Source of the DNA: Acidobacteriaceae bacterium
GTDB lineage: Bacteria; Acidobacteriota; Terriglobia; Bryobacterales; Bryobacteraceae
NCBI GenBank assembly: GCA_019233755.1
Contig: JAFAMD010000016.1
Span: 1 to 64,000, forward strand
Length of the DNA stretch: 64,000 nucleotides
Reading direction: 5' to 3'
The position numbers and the translations under genes were made by a program. Shown here piece after piece: positions 11,501 through 41,322 of the stretch (position 1 is its first letter; the number at the start of each line of letters is the position of its first letter). The notes under the pieces are model-generated. The model saw only the letters and a list, made by a program, of their open reading frames with translations, was not told where the DNA came from and searched no databases.

Positions 11501-12000
11501 ACCGACGTGATATCGCCGCCGGGCGCCGGCATTTCGAGTACTTGTTTAGTGGTAAACGTGGTGCTCAGGTTGGCGTTTTCCGTCTGGACGGCGGCGCCGG
11601 TTGTGCTCACTTCGACCACTTCCTTCGTCGATTGAACCTTGGCCAAAAGATCAATCTCTGTATTCTGGCCTACTTGTACCGTCACTTTCTCTGTATCCGA
11701 GTTCAAGCCGTTCGCTTTGGCCTGAAGGGTGTAGTTATGCGGCTGAAGAAGGGTGAACTGATACGTGCCGGACTGGTTCGTGGTGGTGTTTTGGCTGGCA
11801 CCCGTGTCCGTGTCGTTCAGGGTGACGGTTGCTCCAGGAACCGCGGCACCTGATTGATCTTTGACTGTTCCGGCTATGGCCCCGGTGGTTAGCGTCTGGC
11901 CGAAAAGGTTGGGGATAGCGGAGAAAATGAAAGTCGAGAAAAGGATGGAAACCAACGTCCTGCTGCCCGCGCAGCGAAACCCGCATGTCTTGTGTGACAT
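8518..12000 (-). CDS. Oar-like TonB-dependent receptor 1
   Basis: A 1160-residue outer-membrane protein. Signal peptide 1-35 (hydrophobic VSILFSTFIFSAI, then FGQ). A carboxypeptidase-regulatory-like Ig domain follows at about 38-115 (GAIAGTVKDQSGAAVPGATV). The plug domain is at about 125-260, with NFSSHGLPG, DDYNDAYLNLNNSG and YGRQAGAQANYVTKSGTNQFH. The long remainder is a beta barrel ending in an aromatic residue (GRFQF), as expected for BAM recognition. The ATG is preceded by GAGGAG at 6 bases. It is closely related to receptor 3, sharing long near-identical plug stretches. It carries a sigma-54-type promoter and its own terminator, so it is monocistronic. The substrate is unknown; large peptides or carbohydrates are the usual guess for this family. 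Confidence 0.9.
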   Translation of the reverse strand: MSHKTCGFRCAGSRTLVSILFSTFIFSAIPNLFGQTLTTGAIAGTVKDQSGAAVPGATVTLNDTDTGASQNTTTNQSGTYQFTLLQPHNYTLQAKANGLNSDTEKVTVQVGQNTEIDLLAKVQSTKEVVEVSTTGAAVQTENANLSTTFTTKQVLEMPAPGGDITSVAFTVPGIAVSTGAGYGNFSSHGLPGTSNLFTINGDDYNDAYLNLNNSGASNLLLGQNEISEASVTQNGYSVQYGRQAGAQANYVTKSGTNQFHADLLFNFNNHLMNANDFFANSTGTPRPYAVSRQWGADIGGPVLKNKLFFYTDSEGLYYTLPSVKTVVIPSPQLETYILGNVNAASVPTYTQAFNVYNLAKGAVPVTNGSGPLQDSTGTLGCGAASGGGLAGIAAPGGGTFGVNIPCAYAYGSSGLNTNKEWLMTDRVDWNINDKQKIFFRFKTDHGFQPTGTNLLTPSLNEQSIQPQYEGQINHTYVVSPTQVNSFIFSILWYSAIFGPASVTQASNTFPTYFQIFGPGGVNTNDAPYTFYPLGVNWAVFPQGRDVGQGQIIDDYSWIKGNHTFKFGVNFRKNQVSDFTYLQGKIGSYTFNNLTDFANGVTNASTGSNYFQVFSPLQDAHIRVYNIGFYAQDEWAAKPNLKITLGLRLDRTANPLCLDNCFSRLNQPFTSPSFQTGVDIPYNASIQTGLSHAYYNTNAIVPDPRLGVVWTPNGNSSSGPTIRGGVGVFSDLAPAFLVTNVFTNAPFPYSATLADGSFVGAANVPGSSPYGAQAQYNAFKTGFFNGQTLAQLNASVPGGFSPFKYYSVPSTFQTPTVIEWSFEVQQPIGQKNVVVATYSGNHSYNLLAMNGFTNAFLSNTTQFPNGFGGLPTVARDPRFAAVTQLTNGAISNYNGLSVQYRRTFGYGFQGQASYTWSHAQDDISNGGANEAYAGCPGCSFNTLANPVLAANYGNADYDIRNNFVADFVWDTPWKLHNAILNNILGNWTLSGKFYWRSGTPFTIIDSTLAGAVAGTNINANLGPGDSSGMPATSIVAQLPHSCGASAVNTPCFNSSQFFAAGTEPGFGNIGRNSIYGPHYSDIDVTLFKNFTIKEHYRLQFGASAYNIVNHPNFQNPGADVASPGSLGTIASTAIPPTSAYGSFQGSAVSGRVLVVTGRFQF

Positions 12001-12072
12001 CAGCTGCTCCTCAACACGTAGAGCGTCTTCGAGTAAGGCGCCCGTTAGGTCCGGAGCTGCGCACCGGTCACG

Positions 12073-12109
12073 TAACGAGTCCGTAACGCGCGTGTTGACG
12101 GACTCGTTA
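12073..12109 (-). promoter_or_regulatory. 12-bp inverted repeat at start of receptor 1 leader
   Basis: TAACGAGTCCGT at 12073-12084 and ACGGACTCGTTA at 12098-12109 are perfect reverse complements around a 13-base loop. The repeat begins directly after the -12 GC of the sigma-54-type promoter, so one arm covers the expected transcription start and the other lies in the leader, about 75 bases before the start codon. It could be a protein operator or a 5'-UTR hairpin. Receptors 2 and 3 share part of this leader sequence but not the full repeat. Confidence 0.55.
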
Positions 12110-12124
12110 GCAAATGGTTAGCCA
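12110..12124 (-). promoter_or_regulatory. sigma-54-type -24/-12 promoter of receptor 1
   Basis: On the minus strand, GTTGGC-TAACCAT-TTGCTA fits TGGC-N7-TTGC of RpoN promoters exactly. The -12 GC lies about 110 bases before the ATG at 12000. A TACTAG-N10-CTAGTA palindrome at 12153-12174 lies further upstream, where an enhancer-binding activator might sit. Confidence 0.7.
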
Positions 12125-12223
12125 ACCCCGTAAGTGATTGATACATACGGACTACTAGAATAAATACACTAGTACTTCGATACTGTTTTTGGAAGGCGGC
12201 GTCTAGCCCGCTTCAATTACACG

Positions 12224-12260
12224 AAAAAAGGGCGCGGGATCAAGTGATCCGGCGCCCCTC
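12224..12260 (-). terminator. intrinsic terminator of receptor gene 2
   Basis: GGGCGC-GGGATCA and TGATCC-GGCGCCC form an almost perfect stem, flanked by six A (T on the minus strand). It lies 28 bases beyond the stop of the gene ending at 12285. It resembles the terminators of receptors 1 and 3 in its GGCGCC base. Confidence 0.75.
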
Positions 12261-12284
12261 TTCTCAAGCGAGACTGAAATCGGG

Positions 12285-15200
12285 TTAGAACGTTAATTTG
12301 ACCAGAGTCTGAATTACTCGACCGGAAACAGCCGAGCCTTGGAATGAGCCATAGGCGCTGGTGGGGGCCGAAACGGTACTGTTAATAGTCCCGAAGTTTC
12401 CAAGAGCCAGGTTATTCACCGGCAGGTCAAAATTCGGGTGATTCAGTATGTTGAAGAAGTAAGCGCCGATTAGAAGGCGGAAGCGTTCGTGAATCGGGAT
12501 CACTTTGTTCAGGTTCAGGTCGGTGTCGAAGTAGCCGGGGCCGCGGAAGGAGTTCCGCCCAGTGATACCGTAGTTGCGCTGTTCAGCCGCGGTGGCAAAC
12601 AGCGAGGTATCGAAACAGGAAATATTAGGCGTGGTGCAACTCGCACCCGTGGGGGCACCGATGTAGTCGGCAATGAACGGTTGCGTTGCGATACCCGTAG
12701 CGTTCTTAACTCCACCCGCACTGCGTACGCCGGAATTGACGATGCTAAACGGATAGCCACTGTGGTAGAAGAACGTGCCGGCAACAGTCCAATTACTGAG
12801 AATTGCCTTCACGATCGAGTTATGGAAGTAGGAAGTGGGCACTGTGTAAACGTAATTCGCGTTTAAAGAGTGCCGGACGTCATAGTCGGCATTGCCGTAG
12901 TTGAGAGTCCTGAGGCTAATGGGGCTGACCTGATAGCGGAGACTGACTGCGGTCAGAGCGTTAAACGGTTCAAGGCAATCGTTCGAGCAGGTATCCAGCG
13001 CGTGGCTCCAGGTGTAGGAGAAATTGCCTGAGAACTGCGAGCCCACGCGCCACTTGAATGAAGTGACCATGCCGTCGTACTTCGACCACCCCTGGCTATT
13101 CAGCTCACGAATCTCGCCGAAACGCGCATCGGGGGCGGAAGTTGGCAGAGCCTGGAATCCCTTCTTAGAGTATTGGTTTGCAAACAGGGTCTGGTTGATC
13201 CCCTGGTAGCCACTATTGCCGACGTAATTGACCGACAGCAGGTAGTTGTTACCGAAACCCTTCTGCACTTCAAAGTTCCATTCGTAGTACTTGGGGTTAT
13301 ACAGCTCATTGGCAACCGTGTTGAAATTCGGCGGCGAGAATACAGGAAGCGTCTTCTTCAATTGCGCTACGGTTGCGCCGCTGGCGAAACCGCTCTGGAA
13401 GGCGCTATTAGAATCCGCCACGACGGCAAAGGCACTGTGCGGGTCGTTAGTTGCAACAAGGCCAGCACTTGTGGTGAACGACGTTACCGAAGGCGCATTC
13501 GTAAAGAGGCGCGAGGCGATCAACCCCTGGTACAGGTCGGTGAAGATCCCGAACCCACCGCGAACCACTACGTTGTTTGGGGCGTTGTATGCGAAGCCCA
13601 CACGCGGCTCCGGCACAATCGGTTCGACGGCTGGAAAGGCTTCGTGCAGATTGGTTCGAATGACCGCGTTGTAAGGCACCGTCGGGTCATGGTTGACCTG
13701 CCCGAACGGTTGACCAGCGAGTTCGTTGAAGCACCCTCCCGCGCATTGAATATTGCTGTTGCGATCTAAACGCAAGGCCAAGGTCAAGATAAGATTGGGA
13801 TTAACCCGCCACTCATCCTGCCCATAGAAGCCGGCACTGTACATATTTACGCCCTCAGCCCCGATAGTGCTGAAGTTTTGGGCATAAGTTGAACCATTCG
13901 CGAGTGCACCGTCCAAGAAATCTGTCATCGAGTTGAACGTAAACAAGCCGCTGGTATTCGCGCCATACGAGTAGTCGCTTACCCAGTTCTTGCGAATGTT
14001 GGTACCGAACTTAAGAGTGTGCTTGCCACGCGTCCAGGAGTAATCGTCAATCAGTTGCCACTGCCTGACCTTGCGGCCCTGAGGGTAGCGGGTGTCCTCG
14101 CCTCCCATGGAGGTGCCGAAACTGTTGGAGCTATATAGACCATCGTTGAATGCCCAGGTGGTGGGAAACGCTGTCAGGGCCGCTTGCAGATTCGGGCTGA
14201 AGAAGGCCGAATAATACGAAGCGGAAAGCAGCAATTGATTCACCATGCTTGCGCCTATCGTCTTGGTGTAGCCGAATTGACCGCCGTAAGACGGCTGATT
14301 GCTGATTGCATTGAACACGGGGCTGATCGGGTCCAAATACGTCGGCTGAACTCCATGGTCGGTGTTATAGCGCAAGTAAATACGGTCGTTGCTGCTAATG
14401 TTGTAATCACCTCGCACAGCCAGCAGCCATTCCGTGTTCTGGCCGTTCACTGTGTTCTGGAATGTTCGGGCACAGGGGCGAGTGGTACCGAAGCCGGCGT
14501 TGTAAGCGGAAAGAGCACTAGGATCTGTAGGAGCGCCACCGCTAGCAATATCTCCGCAGCCGAGGTATGCATCGATGGAAGGCGTTACCGGGGTGGCCCT
14601 CGCAGCACCCGATGCACCCGCATAGAGATTAAACGCCTGTTGATAGAACGGCACGGCGGTCGAATTAGTCGCCGTCAGATTGCCCATAACGAAATTGGCA
14701 AAATCGGTGGTCGGAATGTATACCGGTCCTCCCGCAGGCAGAGAGTAGCGGATTCCCTCGTTGTCGATGAAGAAGAATAGTTTGTTCTTGAGAATTGGCC
14801 CACCGAGCGAATCCGCCCATTCGTTGGAAATCGAAAAAGGACGCGGGGTACCGGTTGCGTTATTGAACCAGTCATTCGCGTTCAAGTAGCGGCCGTTGTA
14901 ATACCACGCCAGGTTCCCGTGAAATTCATTTGTTCCCGACTTGGTGACGTAATTCACGTTGGCGCCAGCCTGGCGGCCGTACTGACCCGTGTAGCCGTTG
15001 ACCACGACGGCGGCTTCCGAAATTTCATTGGAGCCGAGCGTCAGGTTGCTCGCGCCTGAGTTGTTCAGGTTCAGGTACGGATCCATGTTGTCGTTTCCGT
15101 TAATCGTGAACAGGTTCGACACGCCAGGAAGGCCGAATACCGAGAAGTTTCCATAGCCGCCGCCAGTGCTGATAGTCACACCTGGAGCAGTGAACGCATA

Positions 15201-15698
15201 GGCGGTCATGTCGTTGCCGGGCGCGGGCAGATTCTGGAGCTGGTTCTGGTCATAACTGGTCGCCAGATTGGCATTCTCGTTCTGCAGCAGCGGAACGGCT
15301 TCAGTGACCTGAACTACTGTTGTCGCGCTCGCCGGCTTCATCGTGAGATCAACGGTGATTACCTGGCCGATCGAGATCAGCACGTTGTCCGTATCCGATT
15401 TCAGGCCGGCGCTCGTTGCAGAGACCTCATAATTGCCGGGCTGTAAGGTGGTGAACCGGTATTCACCAGCCCCGTTCGGGGTGACAGTCCGGGTTTGACC
15501 GGTATCAAGGCTTTTCAGGGTTACCGTTGCAGTCGGGATGACTGCACCCGTTACGTCTTTGACGGTGCCGGCCAAATCGCCCGTTGTCAGGGTTTGGGCG
15601 AAAAGAGAACCGATTGAGAGAGAAATCAGAAGCGCCAGAGAAATGAAACTCAGGACTGCACTTCTTCGATTGCAGGATGTCGGAGCGTTGCCTAGCAT
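12285..15698 (-). CDS. Oar-like TonB-dependent receptor 2
   Basis: A 1137-residue outer-membrane receptor of the same subfamily as receptors 1 and 3. Signal peptide 1-34 (LLISLSIGSLFA), regulatory-like Ig domain about 38-115 (GDLAGTVKDVTGAVIPTATV), plug about 125-260 with NGNDNMDPYLNLNNSG and YGRQAGANVNYVTKSG, then barrel. The C-terminus shares SAYGSFQGSAVSGRV with receptors 1 and 3 and ends in LVKLTF. It is more diverged in the barrel, which may mean a different ligand. The ATG is preceded by GAGGTGAGG at close spacing. A -24/-12 promoter lies at 15799-15813. Confidence 0.9.
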   Translation of the reverse strand: MLGNAPTSCNRRSAVLSFISLALLISLSIGSLFAQTLTTGDLAGTVKDVTGAVIPTATVTLKSLDTGQTRTVTPNGAGEYRFTTLQPGNYEVSATSAGLKSDTDNVLISIGQVITVDLTMKPASATTVVQVTEAVPLLQNENANLATSYDQNQLQNLPAPGNDMTAYAFTAPGVTISTGGGYGNFSVFGLPGVSNLFTINGNDNMDPYLNLNNSGASNLTLGSNEISEAAVVVNGYTGQYGRQAGANVNYVTKSGTNEFHGNLAWYYNGRYLNANDWFNNATGTPRPFSISNEWADSLGGPILKNKLFFFIDNEGIRYSLPAGGPVYIPTTDFANFVMGNLTATNSTAVPFYQQAFNLYAGASGAARATPVTPSIDAYLGCGDIASGGAPTDPSALSAYNAGFGTTRPCARTFQNTVNGQNTEWLLAVRGDYNISSNDRIYLRYNTDHGVQPTYLDPISPVFNAISNQPSYGGQFGYTKTIGASMVNQLLLSASYYSAFFSPNLQAALTAFPTTWAFNDGLYSSNSFGTSMGGEDTRYPQGRKVRQWQLIDDYSWTRGKHTLKFGTNIRKNWVSDYSYGANTSGLFTFNSMTDFLDGALANGSTYAQNFSTIGAEGVNMYSAGFYGQDEWRVNPNLILTLALRLDRNSNIQCAGGCFNELAGQPFGQVNHDPTVPYNAVIRTNLHEAFPAVEPIVPEPRVGFAYNAPNNVVVRGGFGIFTDLYQGLIASRLFTNAPSVTSFTTSAGLVATNDPHSAFAVVADSNSAFQSGFASGATVAQLKKTLPVFSPPNFNTVANELYNPKYYEWNFEVQKGFGNNYLLSVNYVGNSGYQGINQTLFANQYSKKGFQALPTSAPDARFGEIRELNSQGWSKYDGMVTSFKWRVGSQFSGNFSYTWSHALDTCSNDCLEPFNALTAVSLRYQVSPISLRTLNYGNADYDVRHSLNANYVYTVPTSYFHNSIVKAILSNWTVAGTFFYHSGYPFSIVNSGVRSAGGVKNATGIATQPFIADYIGAPTGASCTTPNISCFDTSLFATAAEQRNYGITGRNSFRGPGYFDTDLNLNKVIPIHERFRLLIGAYFFNILNHPNFDLPVNNLALGNFGTINSTVSAPTSAYGSFQGSAVSGRVIQTLVKLTF

Positions 15699-15798
15699 GC
15701 CTCACCTCGTCGTTCCGCCCGTTCCGGTCCAGAGCAGCGAGTTGAGCCGCGCTGCAGAAAAAAGTAATCTGTCCGTTACGCGCGCGACATGCTGGTCA

Positions 15799-15813
15799 GC
15801 AACTCGTTAGCCA
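15799..15813 (-). promoter_or_regulatory. sigma-54-type -24/-12 promoter of receptor 2
   Basis: The minus strand reads TCTGGC-TAACGAG-TTGCTG, an exact TGGC-N7-TTGC match about 100 bases before the ATG at 15698. Upstream, CCCAAAAATAGTAT (minus strand, about 15860-15880) parallels TCCAAAAACAGTAT upstream of receptor 1, which suggests a shared activator site or shared ancestry. Confidence 0.7.
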
Positions 15814-15914
15814 GACGCGCAGCACCATGAAAAGACGAAGGATACGACTTCGCACGTACAAGCAAAATACTATTTTTGGGAGGATTCTTCTAGGACATTC
15901 CCATTCCCAGAACG

Positions 15915-15951
15915 CAAAGGGCGCCGGATCCTGCGATCCGGCGCCCTTTTT
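15915..15951 (-). terminator. intrinsic terminator of receptor gene 3
   Basis: A perfect 12-bp stem GGGCGCCGGATC/GATCCGGCGCCC (15919-15930 and 15935-15946) with loop CTGC. The plus-strand side has a run of T and the minus-strand side only three, so it may act mostly as a 3'-end stabiliser for the receptor transcript. Confidence 0.75.
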
Positions 15952-15968
15952 GTCTGGTTTGATCGAGG

Positions 15969-18900
15969 TTAGAACTGCAGGCGGCCGGTGACGACCAAGA
16001 CGCGGCCGGAAACAGCCGAGCCCTGGAAAGATCCGTAGGCCGAAGTGGGAGGAATTGCCGTCGAGCTGATGGTCCCGAACGAACTGGTTGCCGCGACGTT
16101 CGCGTTGGGGTTCTGGAAGTTCGGGTGGTTCATCAGGTTGTAAGCACTGGCGCCCAACTGGAAGCGCAGGCGCTCCTTGACGGTGAAGTTTTTGAACAAG
16201 GTCGCGTCGATGTCGGCGTAACCGGGTCCATAGATCGAATTGCGGCCGAGATTGCCGAAGCCCGTTTCCTGACCCGCCGCGACAAACTCATTGAGACCGA
16301 AGCAAGGCGTGTTCACCGCACCTGCACTGCAACTGGCCGGCAGGCGAGGCGCAACAGTCGAAGCCAGCAGTGCGGAGTTGTTGTAGTTGATCCCGGTATT
16401 TATGTTCGTTCCGGCAACCAAGCCCGCAAGCGTGCTGTCGTAAATGCTGAACGGTGTTCCGGACCGCCAGAAGAACTTGCCGGAAACAGTCCAGTTATCG
16501 AGTACACCGCCGAGCAGCTTGTTGCTGAATTTCCACGGCGTATCCCAAGTGAAATCAGCGGTGAAATTGTGGCGGACGTCGTAATCCGAGCTGGCGTAAT
16601 TAGAGGCGACATTCGGATTGGCGAGTGTGGTGAACGAGCAGCCGGAGCAGCTTGCATAATACTCTCCGGAACCGCCATTCGAAAGATCATCGAGAGCATG
16701 ACTCCAGGTGTAGGATGCTTCCCCCTGGAAGCCATAGGCGAAGGAGCGGCGGAACTGGACGGACACGCCGTCATAGTTCGATATGCCGCCGTTGGTCAGC
16801 TGCGTGATGGCAGCGAACCTCGGATCGGGCGCCGAAGTGGGCAGGCCGCCGAAGCCGTTCGGGAAGTTTGCCGTGTTGACGTAGGCATTCGGGAAGCCGT
16901 TCTGCAGCAGCAGGTTATAGCCGTGATTCCCGCTGTAGGTGGCCACGATCACGTTCTTCTGACCGATGGGCTGCTGGATTTCGAAGCTCCACTCAAGCAC
17001 GCTGGGGGTCAGGAGCTTGGAGGGCACTGAGAAATAGGGAAACGCGCTAAACCCACCCGGCACGCTGTTGTTCAGTTCGCCGAGGGTCTGGCCGCCGAAA
17101 AACCCAGTCTGGAAGGCATTGAACTGGGCCAGGGCCGCAGCCGCCGAACTTCCAGGAGAACCTGCCGCTCCCACGAAGGATCCGTCGGAGATCTGGGCGG
17201 TATATGGGTAGGGGGCGTTCCTGAATATGTTTGCGACCAGGCCGGCGGGGGCGAGGTCTGAGAAGAGGCCGATGCCGCCGCGAATCACGGGGCCGTTGGT
17301 TGTGCCCTTCGGGGTCCAGACAATGCCCAGACGCGGGTCGGGCACGATGGAATCGACGCCGTAGTAGGCGTGCGAGAGGCCGGTTGTGATGGACGAGTTG
17401 TACGGGATGTTGGCGCCCATCTGGAATGCAGAGGACGTGAACGGCTGATTCAGGCGGGAGAAGCAGTTATCCAGACACTCCGGGTTGGCCGTGCGGTCGA
17501 GCCGGAGACCGAGGGTGATCTTCAGGTTCGGCTTGGCGGCCCATTCATCCTGCGCATAGATGCCGATGTTGTACATCCGAAGATGGGTATCTTCGAGCGG
17601 GCTGAACGTCTGGGTGTAGTAGCTGCCGGTCTCCGCGTTGGTGACACCGTTCGCAAAGTCGGCCAGGTTGTTGAAGAAATACGACCCGATCTTACCTTTC
17701 TCGTCGCTGAAATCGCTGACCTGGTTCTTGCGGAAGTTCACGCCGAATTTGAAGGTGTGATTTCCCTTTACCCAGGAGTAATCATCGATGATCTGGCCCT
17801 GGCCCACGTTGCGCCCTTGCGGGAACGTGGTCCAGTTGACGCCGAGCGGATAGAAACCCGCGTTGTTGGCTCCGCCCGATCCTCCGATCGAGAAGTAGCT
17901 CGGAAAAACAGCGGTCGACTGACTGACGCTGGCCGGACCGAAGATGGCGCTGTACCAGAGAACGGACGCGATGAACGTGTTGACCTGGGTGGGCGAAACC
18001 ACGTAGGTGTGATTGATCTGGCCTTCGTACTGCGGCTGGATGCTCTGTTGGTTCAGAGCAGGCGACAGCAGGTTCGTGCCGGTGGGCTGGAAGCCGTGAT
18101 CTCCCTTGAAACGGAAGAAAATCTTCTGCTTATCGTTGATGTTCCAGTCGATGCGGTGTGTCTCGAGCCATTCTTTGTTGGTGTTGGAACCGCTGGCGGC
18201 GAACGCATTGGCGCAGGGGACGTTTACGCCGAATTTGCCGCCACCAGGAGCGGCCGTTCCGGCCAACCCGCCATCGCTCGCGGCACCGCAGCCTAGGTTG
18301 CCGCTCGAGTCCTGCAGCGGCCCGTTCCCGTTGGTGACGGGCACCGCGCCTTTGGCGTTGTTATACACATTAAACGCCTGCTGGTAGAGAGGAACGGACG
18401 CACCGTGCACGTTCGTCAGAATGTAGTTCTGCAACTGGGGTGACGGAATGACGACCGTCGCTACGCTGGGCAGCGTATAGTACAGGCCTTCGCTGTCGGA
18501 ATAGAAGAACAGTTTGTTCCTGAGGATGGGACCGCCGATATCCGCACCCCATTGCCTCGAAACGGAGTATGGCCGAGCCACCCCCTGTTCGTTGGCAAAG
18601 AAGTCATTGGCGTTCATGAGGTGGTTGTTGAAGTTGAATAGCAGGTCACCGTGGAACTGGTTCGCACCGGATTTGGTTACGTAGTTGACCTGCGCGCCAG
18701 CCTCCCGGCCGTACTGGACACTGTACCCGTTCTGGGTCACGGAGGCCTCGGACACCTCGTTCTGGCCGAGCAACAGGTTGCTGGCGCCGGAGTTGTTCAA
18801 GTTCAGGTAAGCGTCGTTGTAATCGTCGCCGTTCATGGTGAACAGGTTCGAAATACCGGGAAGACCGTGAGAACTGAAATTTCCGTATCCCGCCCCGGTG

Positions 18901-19430
18901 CTGACCGCGACTCCAGGAACCGTAAAAGCGACGGTTGTGATGTCGCCGCCCGGCATGGGAAGCTCCAGGACCTGCTTCGACGTGAACGTGGTGCTCAGGT
19001 TGGCGTTTTCGGCGTCGACAATCGCGCCGGTAGTGCTCACTTCGACCACTTCCTTCGTCGATTGAACCTTGGCGATGAGATCAATGTTCGCGGTGGTTCC
19101 AAGCTGGACCGTGAGTTTCGTCAAATCCGAGCTCAGCCCGCTGCCTGCCGCCTGCACGATGTAGTTACCGGGCGGCAGCAGGGTGAACTGAAAGGCGCCG
19201 GTTTGATTGGTGGTGGTGTTTTGGGTACTGCCCGTATCGGCGTTGTTCAGCGTGACTGTTTCGCCGGGAACGGCCGCACCCGACTGATCTTTCACAGTTC
19301 CGGACACGCCACCCGTGGTTAAGCTCTGGGCGCAAAGAGTGCTAATTAAAGAAAAAAAGAAAGCGGTAAGAGCGACGAACTTTAGCGTTCTACCTCTAGG
19401 AAGACAAAATATTCCTCTACTGCCTGGCAA
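15969..19430 (-). CDS. Oar-like TonB-dependent receptor 3
   Basis: A 1153-residue outer-membrane receptor, the closest paralogue of receptor 1. Signal peptide 1-35 (TAFFFSLISTLCAQ), regulatory-like domain about 38-115 (GGVSGTVKDQSGAAVPGETV), plug with NFSSHGLPGISNLFTMNGDD and QYGREAGAQVNYVTKSG, and a barrel ending GRLQF. Differences from receptor 1 are concentrated in the Ig domain and presumed extracellular loops. The start is TTG at 19428-19430, supported by GAGGAG eight bases upstream. It has its own terminator and -24/-12 promoter. Confidence 0.9.
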   Translation of the reverse strand: MPGSRGIFCLPRGRTLKFVALTAFFFSLISTLCAQSLTTGGVSGTVKDQSGAAVPGETVTLNNADTGSTQNTTTNQTGAFQFTLLPPGNYIVQAAGSGLSSDLTKLTVQLGTTANIDLIAKVQSTKEVVEVSTTGAIVDAENANLSTTFTSKQVLELPMPGGDITTVAFTVPGVAVSTGAGYGNFSSHGLPGISNLFTMNGDDYNDAYLNLNNSGASNLLLGQNEVSEASVTQNGYSVQYGREAGAQVNYVTKSGANQFHGDLLFNFNNHLMNANDFFANEQGVARPYSVSRQWGADIGGPILRNKLFFYSDSEGLYYTLPSVATVVIPSPQLQNYILTNVHGASVPLYQQAFNVYNNAKGAVPVTNGNGPLQDSSGNLGCGAASDGGLAGTAAPGGGKFGVNVPCANAFAASGSNTNKEWLETHRIDWNINDKQKIFFRFKGDHGFQPTGTNLLSPALNQQSIQPQYEGQINHTYVVSPTQVNTFIASVLWYSAIFGPASVSQSTAVFPSYFSIGGSGGANNAGFYPLGVNWTTFPQGRNVGQGQIIDDYSWVKGNHTFKFGVNFRKNQVSDFSDEKGKIGSYFFNNLADFANGVTNAETGSYYTQTFSPLEDTHLRMYNIGIYAQDEWAAKPNLKITLGLRLDRTANPECLDNCFSRLNQPFTSSAFQMGANIPYNSSITTGLSHAYYGVDSIVPDPRLGIVWTPKGTTNGPVIRGGIGLFSDLAPAGLVANIFRNAPYPYTAQISDGSFVGAAGSPGSSAAAALAQFNAFQTGFFGGQTLGELNNSVPGGFSAFPYFSVPSKLLTPSVLEWSFEIQQPIGQKNVIVATYSGNHGYNLLLQNGFPNAYVNTANFPNGFGGLPTSAPDPRFAAITQLTNGGISNYDGVSVQFRRSFAYGFQGEASYTWSHALDDLSNGGSGEYYASCSGCSFTTLANPNVASNYASSDYDVRHNFTADFTWDTPWKFSNKLLGGVLDNWTVSGKFFWRSGTPFSIYDSTLAGLVAGTNINTGINYNNSALLASTVAPRLPASCSAGAVNTPCFGLNEFVAAGQETGFGNLGRNSIYGPGYADIDATLFKNFTVKERLRFQLGASAYNLMNHPNFQNPNANVAATSSFGTISSTAIPPTSAYGSFQGSAVSGRVLVVTGRLQF

Positions 19431-19548
19431 TGCCTGGTCTCCTCAAAATGAATAGCGTTGTAGTAAAGCACGCGCGTGTTCGGTCAGGGCATCGGCGTGG
19501 TCGCCCTGAACTGACAGGAGTCCGTAACGTGCGTGTTACACGTTGTAG

Positions 19549-19563
19549 GCAATTTCTTTGCCA
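19549..19563 (-). promoter_or_regulatory. sigma-54-type -24/-12 promoter of receptor 3
   Basis: The minus strand reads ATTGGC-AAAGAAA-TTGCCT, again TGGC-N7-TTGC, about 120 bases before the TTG start. The leader just downstream contains AACACGCACGTTACGGACTC, nearly identical to the corresponding block of receptor 1. Confidence 0.65.
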
Positions 19564-19687
19564 ATCTATAAGCTACTGATAATGCTGGAGGGCTTCTGAG
19601 GAGCGACTAGGGAGGCTACTAATTTTCAGATGCCGGGCTGCCCACATATTCCATTTCACATATGCGATGTTAAGCCGTAACTAATAG

Positions 19688-19712
19688 AAAAAAGGGAGCT
19701 TATTCAGCTCCC
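19688..19712 (-). terminator. intrinsic terminator of receptor gene 4
   Basis: GGGAGCT/AGCTCCC stem (19694-19700 and 19706-19712) with a TATTC loop and six A before it, which is a T run in the direction of the gene ending at 19741. Confidence 0.8.
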
Positions 19713-19740
19713 TTTCAAAGTTGGTTTGTCGCTCCTAAGC

Positions 19741-22700
19741 TCAGAAGTTGAGCTTGAGCGCCAGGGTGAGGGTTCGCGGATTGCTGGACCAGACCTGGGT
19801 GATCTGGTTGAAAAGCGCGCTCTGCGGCTCCATGAACGCCCGCTGGTTGCCATTCGTTGCACCGACCGGCGCCACATCACTGATGTTGCCGCCGGTGTAC
19901 TGGGCGTGATTGAAGATGTTAAACGCCCGGACGGAAAACTCGAGGTTGGTCCGCTCGGTGAAGTTAAAGCGTTTGGCGAGCGTGAGATCGATGTCTTCGA
20001 TGGGATTCAGCATTTTGGTGTTGCGGCCGGCGGTTGCGATGGTTCCTTTAGGCGCCTGGGCGTAGCCGGCAGCGGGGTTGTTCACGAGGTATCCGACCAC
20101 AGCGCCCGTGGAATTAGTCAAGGCGGTCACGCCTGAGCCGATGGCCGGATTGCCGCCGTTCGGATTGGAAACGGCGCGGTCCGGAGCCGAGTCGCCGTTC
20201 AGGTTGGAGTCGACACCGCTCTGTACGGTGTAGAGAGTTCCGGTCTGGTAGGTGTAGATGGGAGCGATTTCCCAGTTTCCGACGACATTCTTAAGGAACC
20301 AGTTGGAGCGCTTGAAGAACGGCACATCGTAGAGTACTTCAAACGTGAAGCGGTTGCGATGGTCGAGAGCAGAACTGGAGCGATCCGCCCGGAGATCCTG
20401 CGAGTCCTGCGGACGGCGCGGGGTGGAGTAGGTGCTGAAGACATCGGCCGTGGAATCATCGATGGCGTGGCTCCAGGTATAGGCTGCGTTGAACTGCAAG
20501 CCGTTGTTAAACCGCCGGGTCAGGCTGTTTGCCCAGCCGTGATAAATGGAGTTGCCGTAGGGCTGATAGGACGTGATGGGCGATATAAAGCCCGCAGACA
20601 GATAAGCCGGAACGATGTTGCCGTGAGCGTTGTAAGCCGCAGTGAGGGTTTTAAGCGTGCTGGTGAGCGAGTTTAGTGTAGCCTGGCTCGGCATCGACCA
20701 GTACACGGGCAGCGCATTCGACGCGTTTACCACTGGCTGCCGATTGAGCTGATCCTGAATATCGAGGTCCGTGCCGCGAGTGCCGAGATAACGCGATTCG
20801 AAAACGTAATTGTTGGCGAATTCGTGCTGGATGCCAAAGTTCCACTGATAAGATTCCGGACGCTGGACGTTCGGGACGAAGCCGGATGTGGCTTTGCGGG
20901 CCTGGGCTGCAGTGAAATTCGCACTCGGACCGGTGGGAGGCAATCCACCACTTGCCAGGAAGTTGCTGCCGCCGTTACCGGTGACATCCTGGGTGGTGGA
21001 AAGCTGGGGCGGAAGCGTCAGGAGGCCCAGGTTGTCGAACAGAACATCGTAGTTGATGCCGAAGCCGGCGCGGATCGAGGTTTTGCCGCTCGTTCCAGGA
21101 GAATACGCAATGCCGATGCGAGGCATGATGTTGTTTGTCTGGGGCTGCGGCTGACCGAAGGTGATCAGACCGGGCACGCTGGCAATGGAGTTCAGGCTTT
21201 GCTGGTTTTCGGCAGCCGGGACCGTTTCATATTCGTAGCGCAGACCGAGATTCACGGTCAGGTTCGGACGCAGCTTCCAGGTGTCATTGCCGTACCAGCC
21301 AAACAGCCAGCGGTTGCCCCAATAGACCGGGTCACCGGCCGAGCGCTGGGCAATGATATCGGGTGTGAAATCGAACAGATAATCGTTCAGGAAATTGTAC
21401 TCATAATCGCCGCGAGCGCGCTGGGTAAAGCTCTGGGGCGAGATATTCCGTTCGCCGTCAAAGCCAAACTTGAAGCTGTGGGCACCCTTGGTCCATGACA
21501 CGTTGTCGGTGAGCTGATAGGTGTTTTGATAGGTGTACTGCGGAGCATTGCCGTCCGGTCCGACCTGTAGGCCAAGATCATTGAAATAGAGGTTCGGAAA
21601 CTGATCGAGGCCGGGGAACGAAAAATTGCCGGCCGGGAGCGTGTTCGAGTAGCGGTTATAGCCAAAGCGAAACTCGTTGATCAGGGTCGGCGAGAAGTTG
21701 TGATATTCAGACAACGCCGCCAGGTAATTATTGGTTGGTTGTGTCTGGAAGAAAACCGGAAGGTTGGCCGACGTGTCGATACTGCCCTGGCGGTTGAGCA
21801 CGAAACGTCCGCGGAGCGCGTCCTTGTCGGAGGGATTGTAGTCGATGGCGCCGACTCCCGCTTCGTTATTGGTGTAGCTTGGGGCGGAAACGGCGATTTG
21901 TCCCATGTCGATAGCCGTACCGCTAATAGTCTTCTGGCCGTACTCGGGGCCTGCGGCGAGCGAACTAATAATCGTCGTCGGGCAGGTCGCTGACCCAGCG
22001 CAGGACGACGAGGCTAACGGAACATACTTCTTAAATATGTTGAAGTTGTTCTGATTGATTCCCGGAACGGATGCAATCTGAGACAAGCCCTTGGAGGTCG
22101 GAGCGAAGAGCAGGCCGGGAGTCCCTGCCTGGCCAATGGGGTTGTACTCGTAGTCGACAAAAAAGAACAGCTTGTTGCGCTTGATGGGACCACCCACATT
22201 GCCGCCGAACCGATTGTTGTCATAGCGCGGATGCAGCGGCGTGCCGCTCACCGCAGCGAGGTTGTCGGCGGCGTTGAGGTTGCGATTCTGGAAATACTCA
22301 TACAGAGTGCCGTTGAACTGGTTCGTACCGCCCTTAATAATGGTGTTGAACTGGCCGCCGGACGAGTGACCGAAATCGGGTGAATACTGATTCTGGAGCA
22401 TCGCGAACTCTGCGACCGCATCGTTCGGCACCGAGACCAGTGGGCCCGTTACGCTGCCGCTGTTGTTGTCGATTCCCTCGATGGTGAAGTTATTGTTGCG
22501 AGGGCGCTGGCCGCCGACCGAGGGGCCCGTGCCCACGCCGATGGCTCCGCTGGTGGCCACGCCCGGGGCCAGCAGCGCAAGGTTCAATACGCCGGAACCG
22601 TTGGCGGTAACCGGCAGATCGGCGATCTGCTTAGCGTCAACCGTGGTCTGGATCTGCGCGGTGGTCGTATCGATGGCCACGGCACTTTCAGCAACTTCGA

Positions 22701-23055
22701 CCGTCGTCGCAGCCTGGCCGACCGCGAGCGTGATGTTCTGGGTCGCGGTGACGTTCAGTTGAACATTTATGCCCTGGATTTCCGACTTCTGAAAGCCGGT
22801 GGCGTTGACCGTCACGCCGTACGTACCAACCGGAAGATTTTCAAATCGGTATTCGCCAGCAGACGTGGAGGCGGTGGTGTTTTCGAGACCCGTAGCGGCA
22901 TTCCTCGCGACAACGGTCGCACCGGGCACTGTCGCCCCGCTCGGATCATACACTGTGCCGGTCAGGTTGCCGCTTGTCGATTGAGACAGGAGCGGCATTG
23001 CCAGCACTAAGAGCAAGGTAAGGATGGTCCCCACCCGCATTCGGAAAGGATTCAT
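19741..23055 (-). CDS. Oar-like TonB-dependent receptor 4
   Basis: A 1104-residue receptor of a different subfamily from receptors 1-3. Signal peptide about 1-25 (ILTLLLVLAMPLLSQ), regulatory-like domain about 28-110 (GNLTGTVYDPSGATVPGATV), and a plug with VGGQRPRNNNFTIEGIDNN and GHSSGGQFNTIIKGGTNQFN. The barrel ends TLALKLNF. The phrase N-F-T-I-E-G-I-D-N-N is typical of acidobacterial Oar-like proteins. The ATG at 23055 follows GAGAAA, a weak ribosome site. It is monocistronic, between its own -24/-12 promoter and a terminator. The ligand is unknown. Confidence 0.9.
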   Translation of the reverse strand: MNPFRMRVGTILTLLLVLAMPLLSQSTSGNLTGTVYDPSGATVPGATVVARNAATGLENTTASTSAGEYRFENLPVGTYGVTVNATGFQKSEIQGINVQLNVTATQNITLAVGQAATTVEVAESAVAIDTTTAQIQTTVDAKQIADLPVTANGSGVLNLALLAPGVATSGAIGVGTGPSVGGQRPRNNNFTIEGIDNNSGSVTGPLVSVPNDAVAEFAMLQNQYSPDFGHSSGGQFNTIIKGGTNQFNGTLYEYFQNRNLNAADNLAAVSGTPLHPRYDNNRFGGNVGGPIKRNKLFFFVDYEYNPIGQAGTPGLLFAPTSKGLSQIASVPGINQNNFNIFKKYVPLASSSCAGSATCPTTIISSLAAGPEYGQKTISGTAIDMGQIAVSAPSYTNNEAGVGAIDYNPSDKDALRGRFVLNRQGSIDTSANLPVFFQTQPTNNYLAALSEYHNFSPTLINEFRFGYNRYSNTLPAGNFSFPGLDQFPNLYFNDLGLQVGPDGNAPQYTYQNTYQLTDNVSWTKGAHSFKFGFDGERNISPQSFTQRARGDYEYNFLNDYLFDFTPDIIAQRSAGDPVYWGNRWLFGWYGNDTWKLRPNLTVNLGLRYEYETVPAAENQQSLNSIASVPGLITFGQPQPQTNNIMPRIGIAYSPGTSGKTSIRAGFGINYDVLFDNLGLLTLPPQLSTTQDVTGNGGSNFLASGGLPPTGPSANFTAAQARKATSGFVPNVQRPESYQWNFGIQHEFANNYVFESRYLGTRGTDLDIQDQLNRQPVVNASNALPVYWSMPSQATLNSLTSTLKTLTAAYNAHGNIVPAYLSAGFISPITSYQPYGNSIYHGWANSLTRRFNNGLQFNAAYTWSHAIDDSTADVFSTYSTPRRPQDSQDLRADRSSSALDHRNRFTFEVLYDVPFFKRSNWFLKNVVGNWEIAPIYTYQTGTLYTVQSGVDSNLNGDSAPDRAVSNPNGGNPAIGSGVTALTNSTGAVVGYLVNNPAAGYAQAPKGTIATAGRNTKMLNPIEDIDLTLAKRFNFTERTNLEFSVRAFNIFNHAQYTGGNISDVAPVGATNGNQRAFMEPQSALFNQITQVWSSNPRTLTLALKLNF

Positions 23056-23132
23056 TTCTCTGTGTCCCCTATAGCGCCTTCTCCCCCGGGGGAAGCTAAT
23101 GGCACGTAGTTGTACTTAGATCCGGGGACAGA

Positions 23133-23147
23133 GCAATCGCTAGGCCA
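23133..23147 (-). promoter_or_regulatory. sigma-54-type -24/-12 promoter of receptor 4
   Basis: The minus strand reads GTTGGC-CTAGCGA-TTGCTC, an exact TGGC-N7-TTGC match about 78 bases before the ATG at 23055. Further upstream, AATTCCATAA is shared with the region upstream of receptor 5, and AAGTACTAG with that of receptor 1. Confidence 0.7.
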
Positions 23148-23295
23148 ACCTCAGAAAAGCCCGTAAGTCGTTAATATTACTCGGCGGACCGAAGCAAGGT
23201 GGCCTACCGTTTTCCGATTATGGAATTTCCCAGGCCTAGTACTTTAGTTTATGAAAAAAGGCGAGGGTGATTTGTAGCGCTCTGCTCAGGAGGAA

Positions 23296-23318
23296 GAGGG
23301 AGCCGTTAAGGCTCCCTC
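23296..23318 (-). terminator. intrinsic terminator of receptor gene 5
   Basis: GAGGGAGCC/GGCTCCCTC, a 9-bp perfect stem with a GTTAA loop, 19 bases past the stop of the gene ending at 23337. There is no strong T run. Confidence 0.7.
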
Positions 23319-23336
23319 TATCAGGCGAAGGTGGGC

Positions 23337-26300
23337 TCAAAAAGTGATTTTCGCGGCCAGTTGCAGATTGCGGCGATCACTGGTTGTCCCGGTGCAGCCA
23401 CGACAGGCGGGGATATAGGCGCTGGAGGAGACATCGGCCGCCGTCCCCACTACATACAGATTGGCGTGGTTGAAAATGTTGTACGCCTCACCGCGCAATT
23501 GCAGGCCGATCCGCTCGGTCAAGGCGAACGTCTTGTACAGTCCGAGGTTCAGGAACCATGTTCCCGGAGCCGTGAACGCGTTCCGTCCGCTCATGCCGAT
23601 GGGCCAGGGCGGCAGGTTGGTATAGAAGTAAGTCGGGTTTGTGTAGCCGACATTGACGCCATTTGCCGGGAAGTTGAAATAGTTAAACGTGTTCGGCAGT
23701 CCGCCCACCGGCGGCGGATTGCTGGGGCCGGCATTGGGAACTTGCACCGTGAAGTCCGCGCGCGGGCAATACAGCGCGGTATTCGAGCAATCGAAAATCG
23801 AATACGGGGCGCCTGTCTCGGCAGTGAAGATCGGGTCAAGCGACCAACCTCCGAAGAGCTGCCTGCGAATCCCGCTGCCGCCTTTATATGGGATTTCCCA
23901 TACGGCCGATATGGTGACACGCTGCCGGATATCGAAATCCGCGCTGCCTGTATCCATCTTCGGGTCGTAAGGATTGAGATAGCCAAGCATGAACTGGCCG
24001 TTGTTAGCACCGAGGCCGTTCGCATCGCTGAACGTGCTGCTCAGGTCATCAATGGCATGCGACCAGGTGTAATTGGCCGTGAATGTCAAACCGTATGCGC
24101 CACGGGCGGTGGCTTTGAGGTTCACCGCGTTGTAGTTTGAAAAGCCCCGGGAACCGCGGCGGTTGATGTTGCTGTATTGCGTATTCGACCGGTTCAAGCA
24201 ATCGCCGGCAGCGTAGCTGCAGGGGTCTCCCAGGTACACGTTACCGAATCCCTGCTGGTTGACGCTCTCGATGTCATAGAGATGGACACCCCGCGAACCG
24301 GTATAGTCTGCCTCAACCAGCAGATTGTTCGTGAGCTGCTGCTGAATCGAGAAGTCCCAGAAGTTAGCGTATGCAGTGAGAATATTCGCGTCCACGTTGC
24401 GGAGCGAGGCTCTGGGCAACTTAATCGTCCCGGACGTTCCGGAAAGCGGTCCGAAGTTGTTGGGCGAAATCGGAATGATGTTCGTCGCGCTGGAAACGCT
24501 TTGAACCGTTTCGTAGTTCGGCGGGTTCTGGATTACGTTAAACGTGACGTTTCCGAAGTTTCGTATGTATCCGATGCCATAGCCGCCACGCACCGAGGTC
24601 TTGCCGTTGCCGAAGACGTCCCAGGCAAACCCGAGACGCGGCGCGAAATCGTGCCATTCGGGCTTCCAGAGCCCGCCGACCGGGCTTTGCGGCGCGATGA
24701 AGACCTGACCTTGCGCGATTCCGGCCGGCGTGTTGATTTGATTTGCCGGATCATAGAAATTCGAATCAAGCTGCGGATTTTTGTTGTGCTGCACGCCGAA
24801 GTGTTCCCAGCGCACACCGATGTTGGCCGTGAAGCGCGGAAGGATCTTCCAGGAATCCTGCACGTAGACGGCGCCTTCCTTATAGCGGTTGCTCCGGCTG
24901 AAGTTCGGTGGTCCGAGCGGAAGAGAAACGGTCTCGCCCGGATATTTTCCCTGCGGATTGATAGCCACGTTAATTTCGTACAACTGGCCTGCGAGGAAGT
25001 TTGAAACCGCCGGCCCGATACCGGCGGAACTCAGATAGTCTCCAGCAGTCTCGTATGCGCCGAAGGTTCGGTTGTCTCGCAGGTATTGGAAGCTGCCGCC
25101 GAAGCGGATATCGTGTTTGCCGTGGGTCCAGGTAAGGTCTTCATACAACTGAACGAAGTTCTGCGGACCGCCGAACGGGATGCCGTTACCGGGCGTGAAT
25201 GGGTCATAGCCAGGGAAGATTACATTTATGCCGCCAAGAGCGTATGCTCCGTTGCCGTTGACGTAAAGCGTCGGGACGGGAGGCTGCTGGCCGAACGGCT
25301 GCTGGTTGTTCAGCCGGTTGAACACCGCCTTCGACTGGGAGACAAAATTCGGCGCAAATGTGTGAATGATGGAGTACAGCGCGTTGTTGTTGAAATTCGT
25401 GTTCGCCGAGTCGAACCCGACGTACGGGCTATTGGATACGACTCCCGGGGGCTGCGCGATGCTTTCGAGCGCATAGCGGAAATACATTTGCGTCCTGTCC
25501 GTCAGGTTGTAGTCAATGCGCTCGACGTTCGCGTAAGAGTTCCCCGGCACCCCGCCGCCAGCATCCCCCGCGTAGGTATAGGCGATCTGGTTGAATATCG
25601 GCGTATTGGGATTGAAGGCGAGACAACCTGCTGAAGTGCCGCAAATATCGGTTCCTTGCGCGGCAAACTGGTTGATTGTCTCAGATTGAATGAGCACGTT
25701 GTTCGACTTCAGCTTGCCGTAGGCATCAAAGAAGCTTTGGGTATTGGGAGACGAGGTGGCGATCAACTGGGGCGTAGGCACCCAGACGGTTTGGGTTGCC
25801 AGGCTGCGGATACGTGTCCATTCCGTGCTGCTGAAAAAGAACAGCTTGTTCTTTACAATGGGACCGCCGACGCTATAACCGAACTGGTTCCGGGTAAAGA
25901 CGGTCTTCGGCAGACCTCTTGCATTGTTATCGAAGCTGTTGGATGAGAGGTCCGAAACACGGTTGAACTCATAGGCCGTGCCGTGGAAGCCATTCGTGCC
26001 GGACTTCGTGACCACGTTGACAATACCGCCGCCCGCACGGCCGTATTCCGCCGTGAAGTTGCTGGTCAGGAGGCTGAACTCCTGAATCGAGTCCAGCGGA
26101 ACGGTCTGCCCGACGGTCGTATCGAACTCATTGTTGTTGGCGGCGCCGTCGAGAAGCACATTCGAATCGCTGGGGCGTTGGCCGTTGATGGCATAATTCA
26201 CGCCACGCTGCTGGCCACCGTTTGAGGTGGAGCCGGCATCTGAGACGTTGCCCGAAATCGCGACGAGGTCGTATGGATTACGGGTGAGGGTCGGCAACTG

Positions 26301-26741
26301 GCTCAATTGGGTGGTGTTTACCGTAGTGACCAGAGTCTGAGTTACGGTGTCGACTTGAACTGCAGCCTCAGAGACCTGGACGGTGGTGCCGGTCTGCCCG
26401 ACTTGCAGTCTCACGTCGAGTCCCACTTTGGCGCCGGCACTTACGATTACCTTTCGCTCGAATGGGGTGAATCCCGCTGATTGCACGGTCACCTCGTACT
26501 CACCCGGGAGCAGATTGGAGACGACAAAGTCCCCAGCGCCCGAGCCCGTGGTTAACCGTTCGGCGCCCGTACTGGTGCTCCGTATTTTTACGGAAGCAGT
26601 GGGAACAATTGCGCCGGACGGGTCAGTTACTGTACCTGTTATTTGGCCGGTTTCCGCCTGCGCCCAAATCACGCACGCGATGGCAAGGGATAGGACGGCC
26701 GGGCGAAACAGAGCGCTCACCCGGGTACGGAGTTGACTCAT
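23337..26741 (-). CDS. Oar-like TonB-dependent receptor 5
   Basis: A 1134-residue receptor of a third type. I place the start at ATG 26739-26741, which has AGGGAGG at ideal spacing and is followed directly by a signal peptide (VLSLAIACVIWAQA). A longer frame from 26858 would put 39 residues without signal character in front. The regulatory-like domain follows (GQITGTVTDPSGAIVPTASV). The plug contains NGQRPSDSNVLLDGAANNN and EYGRAGGGIVNVVTKSGTNG, and the barrel ends LAAKITF. Several paired cysteines in the barrel (such as CRGC near the C-terminus) are probably loop disulphides. The -24/-12 promoter lies only about 60 bases upstream. Confidence 0.9.
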   Translation of the reverse strand: MSQLRTRVSALFRPAVLSLAIACVIWAQAETGQITGTVTDPSGAIVPTASVKIRSTSTGAERLTTGSGAGDFVVSNLLPGEYEVTVQSAGFTPFERKVIVSAGAKVGLDVRLQVGQTGTTVQVSEAAVQVDTVTQTLVTTVNTTQLSQLPTLTRNPYDLVAISGNVSDAGSTSNGGQQRGVNYAINGQRPSDSNVLLDGAANNNEFDTTVGQTVPLDSIQEFSLLTSNFTAEYGRAGGGIVNVVTKSGTNGFHGTAYEFNRVSDLSSNSFDNNARGLPKTVFTRNQFGYSVGGPIVKNKLFFFSSTEWTRIRSLATQTVWVPTPQLIATSSPNTQSFFDAYGKLKSNNVLIQSETINQFAAQGTDICGTSAGCLAFNPNTPIFNQIAYTYAGDAGGGVPGNSYANVERIDYNLTDRTQMYFRYALESIAQPPGVVSNSPYVGFDSANTNFNNNALYSIIHTFAPNFVSQSKAVFNRLNNQQPFGQQPPVPTLYVNGNGAYALGGINVIFPGYDPFTPGNGIPFGGPQNFVQLYEDLTWTHGKHDIRFGGSFQYLRDNRTFGAYETAGDYLSSAGIGPAVSNFLAGQLYEINVAINPQGKYPGETVSLPLGPPNFSRSNRYKEGAVYVQDSWKILPRFTANIGVRWEHFGVQHNKNPQLDSNFYDPANQINTPAGIAQGQVFIAPQSPVGGLWKPEWHDFAPRLGFAWDVFGNGKTSVRGGYGIGYIRNFGNVTFNVIQNPPNYETVQSVSSATNIIPISPNNFGPLSGTSGTIKLPRASLRNVDANILTAYANFWDFSIQQQLTNNLLVEADYTGSRGVHLYDIESVNQQGFGNVYLGDPCSYAAGDCLNRSNTQYSNINRRGSRGFSNYNAVNLKATARGAYGLTFTANYTWSHAIDDLSSTFSDANGLGANNGQFMLGYLNPYDPKMDTGSADFDIRQRVTISAVWEIPYKGGSGIRRQLFGGWSLDPIFTAETGAPYSIFDCSNTALYCPRADFTVQVPNAGPSNPPPVGGLPNTFNYFNFPANGVNVGYTNPTYFYTNLPPWPIGMSGRNAFTAPGTWFLNLGLYKTFALTERIGLQLRGEAYNIFNHANLYVVGTAADVSSSAYIPACRGCTGTTSDRRNLQLAAKITF

Positions 26742-26800
26742 GTAGCCTCCCTGATTGCCGCTGCCTGGCGTGGCAGCCGGGCAATAGTGTGCTTCCATTA

Positions 26801-26815
26801 GCAATCTTTGAGCCA
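26801..26815 (-). promoter_or_regulatory. sigma-54-type -24/-12 promoter of receptor 5
   Basis: The minus strand reads GTTGGC-TCAAAGA-TTGCTA, exactly TGGC-N7-TTGC, 60 bases before the corrected ATG at 26741. It lies inside the longer frame mentioned for receptor 5, which supports the later start. Confidence 0.7.
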
Positions 26816-26858
26816 ACGCAGGATAACCGGGTAATTGATTGATAATAGGAGGGATCAC

Positions 26859-27235
26859 GGGTTAGGCCAACACCGCGTTAGCTTCTGTTTATGGAATTGC
26901 AATCAGGCAAGATTCCCGTTATATGGAACAAATACCGAGGGGCCTGGGTGGCTCCCCCGGTACTTTACGGCAGGAACAGCTTAGATTCTTGGCCAGCTTG
27001 TCTGAGAACTTCTCTCTCAGATAGCTTTCAGGCTTCAGCGTTCAGCTATCAGCTAAGTGTTGGGGTCGGGTGAGCACCTTGGATGAGCTGAAACCTCTCC
27101 TGAAAGCTCTTGCGATGGCTGAAAGCTCTGCTCAGCAAAATAGATTTCAAGTATCCTTGGCTAGTTTTAGGAGGTCAGCTTGAGGGCAAGCTCTATCAGG
27201 CCGAAGTTGCTAATCGGTCGGTAAGCGAGAAGCAG
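26859..27235. other. intergenic region between receptor 5 and rpoD, with REP-like tract
   Basis: No gene is seen. It contains an imperfect hairpin (ACCGAGGGG paired with CTCCCCCGGT, about 26934-26962) and a TCTGAGA-N7-TCTCAGA repeat (27001-27021). A low-complexity tract of repeated TTCAGC, GCTATCAGC and GCTGAAAGC words runs from about 27022 to 27135. Similar words recur at 39605-39650 and 41281-41322. Confidence 0.5.
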
Positions 27236-30567: not shown

Positions 30568-30606
30568 TGGAGCACCAGGCAAAAAGGGGGCTCCTCGGAA
30601 GTAGTC

Positions 30607-41291: not shown

Positions 41292-41322
41292 TCGCTGAAT
41301 GCTGATGACTGAGAGCTATCTT
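41281..41322. repeat. REP-like tract, right of IS110 element
   Basis: Words such as AAGCTGATCGCTGAATGCTGATGACTGAGAGCTATC form the continuation of the interrupted repeat, here listed as AGCTGATCGCTGAATGCTGA and following. It ends at the nuoN stop and may also serve as the 3' end of the nuo transcript. Confidence 0.5.

Follow-up and report, generated by a model that had tools for sequence, protein, structure and literature searches.

Five Oar-like receptor genes, W1 to W5, are arranged head to tail on the minus strand between positions 8518 and 26741 of the stretch analysed here (hereafter the window), which is 64,000 nucleotides of contig JAFAMD010000016.1 from an Acidobacteriaceae bacterium of soil. 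All five open reading frames (ORFs) score above the Pfam cut-offs for CarboxypepD_reg and for the barrel family PF25183. (The Plug domain is above its Pfam cut-off in W5 only and slightly under it in W1; it is unreported for W2-W4.) Judging from the DNA upstream of each gene, every one of the five receptors probably has its own promoter, of the sigma-54-dependent (-24/-12) kind. An original prediction, made from the sequence alone, had proposed such promoters, and we found support for them from an intact rpoN, from activators in the same genome, from the restriction of the element to this array, and from spacing-dependent conservation in relatives. We also identified a second shared element farther upstream, and this points to a candidate activator.

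The pattern TGGC-N7-TTGC is present upstream of all five receptors, on the minus strand (the sense strand of the receptors) and with the predicted spacing of seven bases. Counted from where TTGC ends, the start codons of W1 through W5 are 110, 101, 119, 78, and 60 bases away, which agrees with the expected range of 60-130. (The value for W5 is counted from the ATG at 26741 and not from the upstream GTG at 26858.) A pyrimidine precedes TGGC in all five elements, and the GG and GC are kept in all five. The pattern is not rare in itself. The whole window contains 7 matches where 3.57 are expected, and 4 of 100 shuffled sequences reach as many; the 4.95 Mb genome, on both strands, has 287 matches to the pattern and 230 to the same pattern written backward. 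The original prediction expected one chance match per 65 kb per strand, which was too low, as each strand of the genome has one match in roughly 34 kb, or twice that density. Even at the genome's density, the odds that five chosen regions of 200 bases would all contain a match are about 1e-11, so five out of five is indeed far beyond chance. Because the count in the window is near chance and the count in the genome is only modestly above the backward control, the finding rests on the position of the elements.

The element is also specific to this array. The genome carries about 37 Oar-like receptors (a search with PF25183 matched 52 stretches). From -220 to +20 relative to the start codon, the exact element is found in 5/5 receptors of the window and in 0/30 comparable receptors elsewhere in the genome; with one mismatch allowed, it is found in 2 of those 30. 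In a wider region (-350 to +150 relative to the first start codon), a one-mismatch site is present in 8 of 35 other receptors, and one receptor outside the window (L042) has an exact match 396 bases upstream. (The set of 30 omits L050 and L056, whose upstream DNA is unreadable, a receptor at the edge of contig C44, small fragments, and five remote partial matches, L097-L101, which are without an exact site.) For the receptors on contig C38, which are near an activator, we did not find a sigma-54 element in place. The expected enrichment before Oar-like genes across the genome therefore holds for the array in the window and not for the other receptors examined. Because those other receptors are without the element, any regulon would be a subset of the receptors.

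Tandem duplication alone does not account for the shared promoter. A phylogeny of 136 receptors, built with FastTree, pairs W1 with W3 as sisters and places W2 within the same large clade, whereas W4 and W5 are in the other main group, together with the remaining receptors of this genome. W1-W3 do share a repeat, similar to CGCGYGTWACGGAC, directly past the -12 box (the copy of W1 is at 12076-12097 of the window). This repeat falls within the expected early transcript, and we did not notice it in W4 or W5. Enrichment of k-mers past the -12 box is chiefly due to it.

If these elements are sigma-54 promoters, then they should recur in related loci with the same spacing. Among homologues from the same genus with upstream DNA, 4 of 22 have an exact site, and several others are one base off. 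Among named Acidobacteriota, 80 loci were returned, of which 76 have enough upstream DNA (5 are also in the genus set). The exact element is found in the sense orientation in 9 of these 76 loci, as compared to 3 in the antisense orientation, or 0, 2, 0, and 2 in the sense orientation with spacings of N5, N6, N8, and N9. With up to one mismatch (GG and GC kept), the sense N7 element is found in 28 of the 76, versus 3, 4, 8, and 2 for N5, N6, N8, and N9 and 5 for antisense N7. An enrichment that is limited to N7 and to the sense strand agrees with what sigma-54 predicts. The conservation that the original prediction called for is thus spacing-dependent and patchy.

The genome has one match to rpoN, with its RpoN box intact, and 32 stretches that match PF00158, of which 20 are full-length activator domains. 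Using a hidden Markov model of this genome's activators, we found no activator gene next to receptors, either within the window or within the stretches around the 80 named loci. (In G005 (L123), an activator and a receptor are some 8 kb apart; L102 and L103 were chosen because they contain this genome's activators.)

We then examined the DNA farther upstream. A simple count of TTCC-N6-GGAA was uninformative, with 2 forward and 2 reverse matches out of 39. Expectation-maximisation, run on 180 bases of upstream DNA for 27 receptor promoters, yielded the motif TTCCA.AAtC.G.A, with a log-likelihood of 93, as compared to 47-61 in 8 dinucleotide-shuffled sets. In the window, this second element, which was found de novo from the receptor promoters, reads about cTTCCAnAAacnGnAg and lies 68-82 bases before TGGC. 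We refer to it as the predicted upstream activator site (UAS). As shown in Table 1, the predicted UAS stands out in W1 and W2, is of moderate strength in W4 and W5, and is weak in W3. (The site of W3 is in the same register as those of W1 and W2 and is also picked by an 18-base model.) The motif has partial dyad symmetry, as one would expect if the activator binds as a dimer.

A similar motif precedes the genes of a two-component system, which we call C71 after its contig in this genome. De novo analysis of 30 promoters of this kinase operon (28 operon loci plus those of this genome and G256) found the -24/-12 element first and then.TCCCaAAAtccGGAt, whose best site precedes TGG by 86-90 bases in 22 of the 30. 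The motifs from the receptor and kinase promoters, which are independent sets, correlate at r = 0.85 without any shift, and none of 5,000 column permutations is as good; with the window left out, r = 0.82. A model trained on the kinase promoters alone also finds sites in the 27 receptor promoters taken together (Fisher p = 2e-14, with 16 of 27 below 0.05), although this treats the promoters as independent and some are related. In the kinase operon loci, the sigma-54 element (up to one mismatch) is present with N7 spacing in 25 of 30, as compared to 2, 1, 2, and 2 for N5, N6, N8, and N9. Finally, a strict pattern that combines the motif with the sigma-54 element matches 39 places in 399 genomes of the class (11 for the backward control). 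Two of these are W4 and W5. Among the 29 of the other 37 that we examined, those in G152 and G305 precede receptors of another genus, and those in G190 and G256 precede the same kinase/activator operon.

The C71 system comprises a kinase with PDZ, seven-helix membrane, GAF, and PAS regions and an NtrC-type sigma-54 activator. The order within the kinase is an N-terminal hydrophobic anchor, PDZ, the seven-helix region, GAF, PAS, HisKA, and HATPase; PDZ is above the Pfam cut-off in G190 and slightly under it in this genome. The kinase is present in 98 of 101 genomes of the family (E <= 1e-100) and in 51 of 119 genomes of the phylum (1e-120). The regulators of this genome and of G190 have the same recognition-helix stretch, RIPLSTLNQKIKRL, which is what one would expect if the site is conserved. 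In both genomes, a gene that matches GWxTD and, weakly, Y_Y_Y (L276:271-3868 and L271:4553-6235) is divergent from the kinase operon and may share a control region with it. In this genome, the GWxTD gene adjoins a CarboxypepD_reg protein.

Table 1. Receptor genes, predicted -24/-12 elements, and predicted upstream activator sites (UAS) of the window, with the C71 genes. Bits and p values are from the model trained on kinase promoters alone (p from shuffling); ranks are from the scan of this genome's stretches.
Feature	Position	Strand	Details
W1, Oar-like receptor	8518..12000	-	1160 aa; CarboxypepD_reg and PF25183 barrel
W2, Oar-like receptor	12285..15698	-	1137 aa
W3, Oar-like receptor	15969..19430	-	1153 aa; TTG start; 75% identity to W1
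W4, Oar-like receptor	19741..23055	-	1104 aa
W5, Oar-like receptor	23337..26741	-	start taken as ATG 26741; ORF opens with GTG 26858
-24/-12 element of W1	12110..12124	-	TGGCTAACCATTTGC; pattern match
-24/-12 element of W2	15799..15813	-	TGGCTAACGAGTTGC; pattern match
-24/-12 element of W3	19549..19563	-	TGGCAAAGAAATTGC; pattern match
-24/-12 element of W4	23133..23147	-	TGGCCTAGCGATTGC; pattern match
-24/-12 element of W5	26801..26815	-	TGGCTCAAAGATTGC; pattern match
Predicted UAS of W1	12180..12195	-	CTTCCAAAAACAGTAT; 71 bases before T of TGGC; 17.6 bits, p 0.005; rank 1
Predicted UAS of W2	15867..15882	-	CTCCCAAAAATAGTAT; 69 before TGGC; 16.1 bits, p 0.005; rank 2
Predicted UAS of W3 (weak)	19616..19631	-	ATCTGAAAATTAGTAG; 68 before TGGC; 8.1 bits, p 0.045; last of 19 pairs
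Predicted UAS of W4	23211..23226	-	ATTCCATAATCGGAAA; 79 before TGGC; 10.6 bits, p 0.03; rank 9
Predicted UAS of W5	26882..26897	-	ATTCCATAAACAGAAG; 82 before TGGC; 11.8 bits, p 0.02; rank 6
C71 kinase (this genome)	L276:4258-7233		directly upstream of the regulator
C71 NtrC-type response regulator	within ORF L276:7028-8749		response regulator, AAA+ sigma-54 domain, HTH_8

Because the predicted UAS resembles the motif before the kinase and activator's own genes, it seems that a single signalling system acts on the receptors. And because the same motif and a sigma-54 element precede the kinase operon in relatives, this system probably activates itself as well as the receptors. From these sequence comparisons, we propose that W1-W5 form a sigma-54 regulon that is driven by the autoregulated C71 system, and we put the probability of this at about three in four. 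Sigma-54 RNA polymerase would be held at each -24/-12 element until the C71 regulator, which in this genome is presumably the cognate activator, is phosphorylated by its kinase, the product of the gene directly before its own. The phosphorylated regulator would bind the TTCC/GGA-like site roughly 70-90 bases upstream, loop over, and open the promoter through ATP hydrolysis. The same activation would raise the kinase operon and the receptors together. The idea of a signal-dependent regulon from the original prediction thereby gains a candidate activator, through the second shared element, and shrinks to a subset of the receptors.

Several observations weigh against this proposal. First, the site at this genome's own C71 promoter is weak (9.5 bits with leave-one-out, with 12 of 500 shuffles as good), and the -12 box of this promoter has one mismatch. 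Also, the loop of the C71 regulator reads GSFTGA in this genome, while the orthologues in G190 and G256 read GAFTGA.

Second, the predicted sites are not uniformly convincing. The 27 receptor promoters were selected for a sigma-54-like site, partly by eye. With the kinase-only model, 11 of them miss p = 0.05, and the forward score exceeds the reverse in only 15 of 27. That model finds a site in 10 of 39 receptors with a sigma-54 element. For receptors without the element, it finds 7 of 61 in relatives (4 in reverse) and 2 of 28 in this genome (0 in reverse). Of the 76 named loci, 48 are without a clear sigma-54 site. One site, at L113, sits within what looks (by eye) like a terminator hairpin. 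Helical phasing of the sites is suggestive only: it is modest (Rayleigh p = 0.01-0.02), and the V-test goes from p = 0.005 to p = 0.036 once near-duplicates and doubtful sites are dropped.

Third, in a scan of stretches of this genome with the kinase-only model, 19 site-plus-promoter pairs reach at least 8 bits, as compared to 10 in the backward control, and only W1 and W2 stand clearly above the background. (The scan covered 0.75 Mb, with overlaps counted, and 30 of the stretches were picked for TGGC-N7-TTGC; the own kinase promoter, which is in the training set, ranks fifth.) Scanning with the averaged motif table puts W1, W2, W5, and W4 on top, with the next pair at 10.6. This table separates the array better because it is partly built from the window's sites; the kinase-only version is weaker.

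Fourth, the receptors of G152 and G305 adjoin ntrYX. This raises the alternative that the promoters are sigma-54-dependent, as we propose, but that another activator of this genome, such as NtrX, acts on them. A gene order of receptor, kinase, and NtrX is found in this genome (contig C16) as well as in G152 and G305, the latter two with a strong site, and the weak site at this genome's C71 promoter would also be easier to understand. But the NtrX of this genome has RRTNLDGTA in place of the GAFTGA loop, and the loop is likewise missing in the two other genus members that we read (L308 and L309). Also, among 43 ntrYX stretches, a receptor is upstream in just 9 (one of them 6.4 kb off), and the site-plus-promoter pair is found in 2 (G152 and G305), while the motif is also present in front of a kinase operon other than ntrYX. 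Given the lost loop and the 2 of 43, we hold NtrX unlikely as the activator in this genome, and an activator other than C71 is unlikely overall. NtrX itself is widespread, being present in 135 of 150 genomes of the family. Its loop is replaced in the three genus members that we read (by RRTNLDGTA or similar) and altered in many others (GSFPGA or GSFAGA), as if NtrX had left sigma-54 control. (This genome's NtrX is at L275:3817-5184, and the ntrYX loci are L308-L347.)

The upstream motif might instead be real but a general accessory element of sigma-54 promoters, such as the site of a bending protein, and not the site of one activator. Sigma-54 promoters of two kinds do have it, with much the same spacing, and there are moderate pairs elsewhere in the genome, including a 12.4-bit pair by an activator gene on contig C5 (L072/L102). 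However, no other pair at the 30 activator loci of this genome reaches 11 bits or more (with a scan table that is partly built from the window's sites), and the partial dyad is what the site of a dimeric activator would show, so we consider an accessory element to be quite unlikely. That the -24/-12 matches arose by chance and the receptors use other promoters is highly improbable: the number of matches in the whole window is close to chance and a 9-of-12 match to a sigma-70-like promoter lies near W5 (26870-26842), but the region has fewer sigma-70-like matches than its shuffles have on average (5 vs 7.4), and chance explains neither the contrast with the genome's other receptors nor the spacing-specific recurrence in relatives.

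The regulon that we propose, with sigma-54, an NtrC-type regulator, and an upstream site, is of a kind that is already known. It is similar to AtoSC, NtrBC, and ZraSR in the form of the promoter, the upstream site, the apparent autoregulation, and the pairing of a kinase with a response regulator-AAA+-HTH_8 protein. It differs in its targets, which are Oar-like outer-membrane receptors, and in its kinase, which has PDZ and a seven-helix membrane region. We know of no activator site that matches the predicted one. PrsK/PrsR of PEP-CTERM systems also combine a membrane kinase, an NtrC-type regulator, and a sigma-54 regulon, but neither C71 protein reaches the NCBIfam cut-offs for these families. 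The C71-type regulator scores 359 for PrsR (TIGR02915; cut-off 502.6), and the kinase of G190 scores 104 for PrsK (TIGR02916; cut-off 300), which is not among the best 25 families for this genome's kinase. Indeed, among the best 25 NCBIfam families per protein, all are under their curated cut-offs for C71-type proteins. Signal-dependent control of outer-membrane TonB-dependent receptors is known from extracytoplasmic function (ECF) sigma factors and their anti-sigma factors (as in FecIR), whereas here we find sigma-54 and a response regulator.

Oar of Myxococcus xanthus is an outer-membrane protein of the same broad kind. Excerpts from work on this protein describe protease export and glucanase activity and do not mention regulation by such a sigma-54 system (PMC6971385). 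The nearest parallel that we found is from Paracoccus, in which TonB-dependent transporters are reported to change in an NtrY mutant (PMC9409073). In its main text, as far as the sections at hand extend, a 2025 cross-phylum survey of sigma-54 has no words beginning with "Acidobacteri," and it lists TonB itself in Flavobacteriia (PMC12316311). The original prediction knew of no described regulon of RpoN-driven Oar-type receptors, and within the open-licence PMC literature, we too found no description of this regulon, of the activator site, or of a link from either to Oar-like receptors.

Our proposal ties one set of receptors to sigma-54 and suggests that they are driven by a signalling system that is nearly universal in the family. 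The DNA motif offers a way to list further targets. The question also shifts, from what the receptors respond to, to what activates one kinase. If the PDZ of the kinase is outside the inner membrane, this would suit the sensing of peptides or of unfolded outer-membrane proteins, but this is speculation. A full feedback circuit, in which PDZ (between the anchor and the seven-helix region) reads the unfolded C-termini of the receptors or imported peptides while the activator drives its own operon and the receptors, seems to us rather unlikely.

Other genes surround the array. Directly upstream of it (window 27295-28830) is an RpoD-like sigma-70 factor whose regions 1.2 and 2 are some 190 residues apart. 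About 3 kb beyond the array, on the opposite strand, are the genes for an ECF sigma factor and a zinc-finger protein (29884-31263). Next come a membrane protein similar to LiaI/LiaF and a protein with DUF4097 (29884-33620 for all four). Farther along, 41322-51686 holds a gene cluster for NADH dehydrogenase (complex I).

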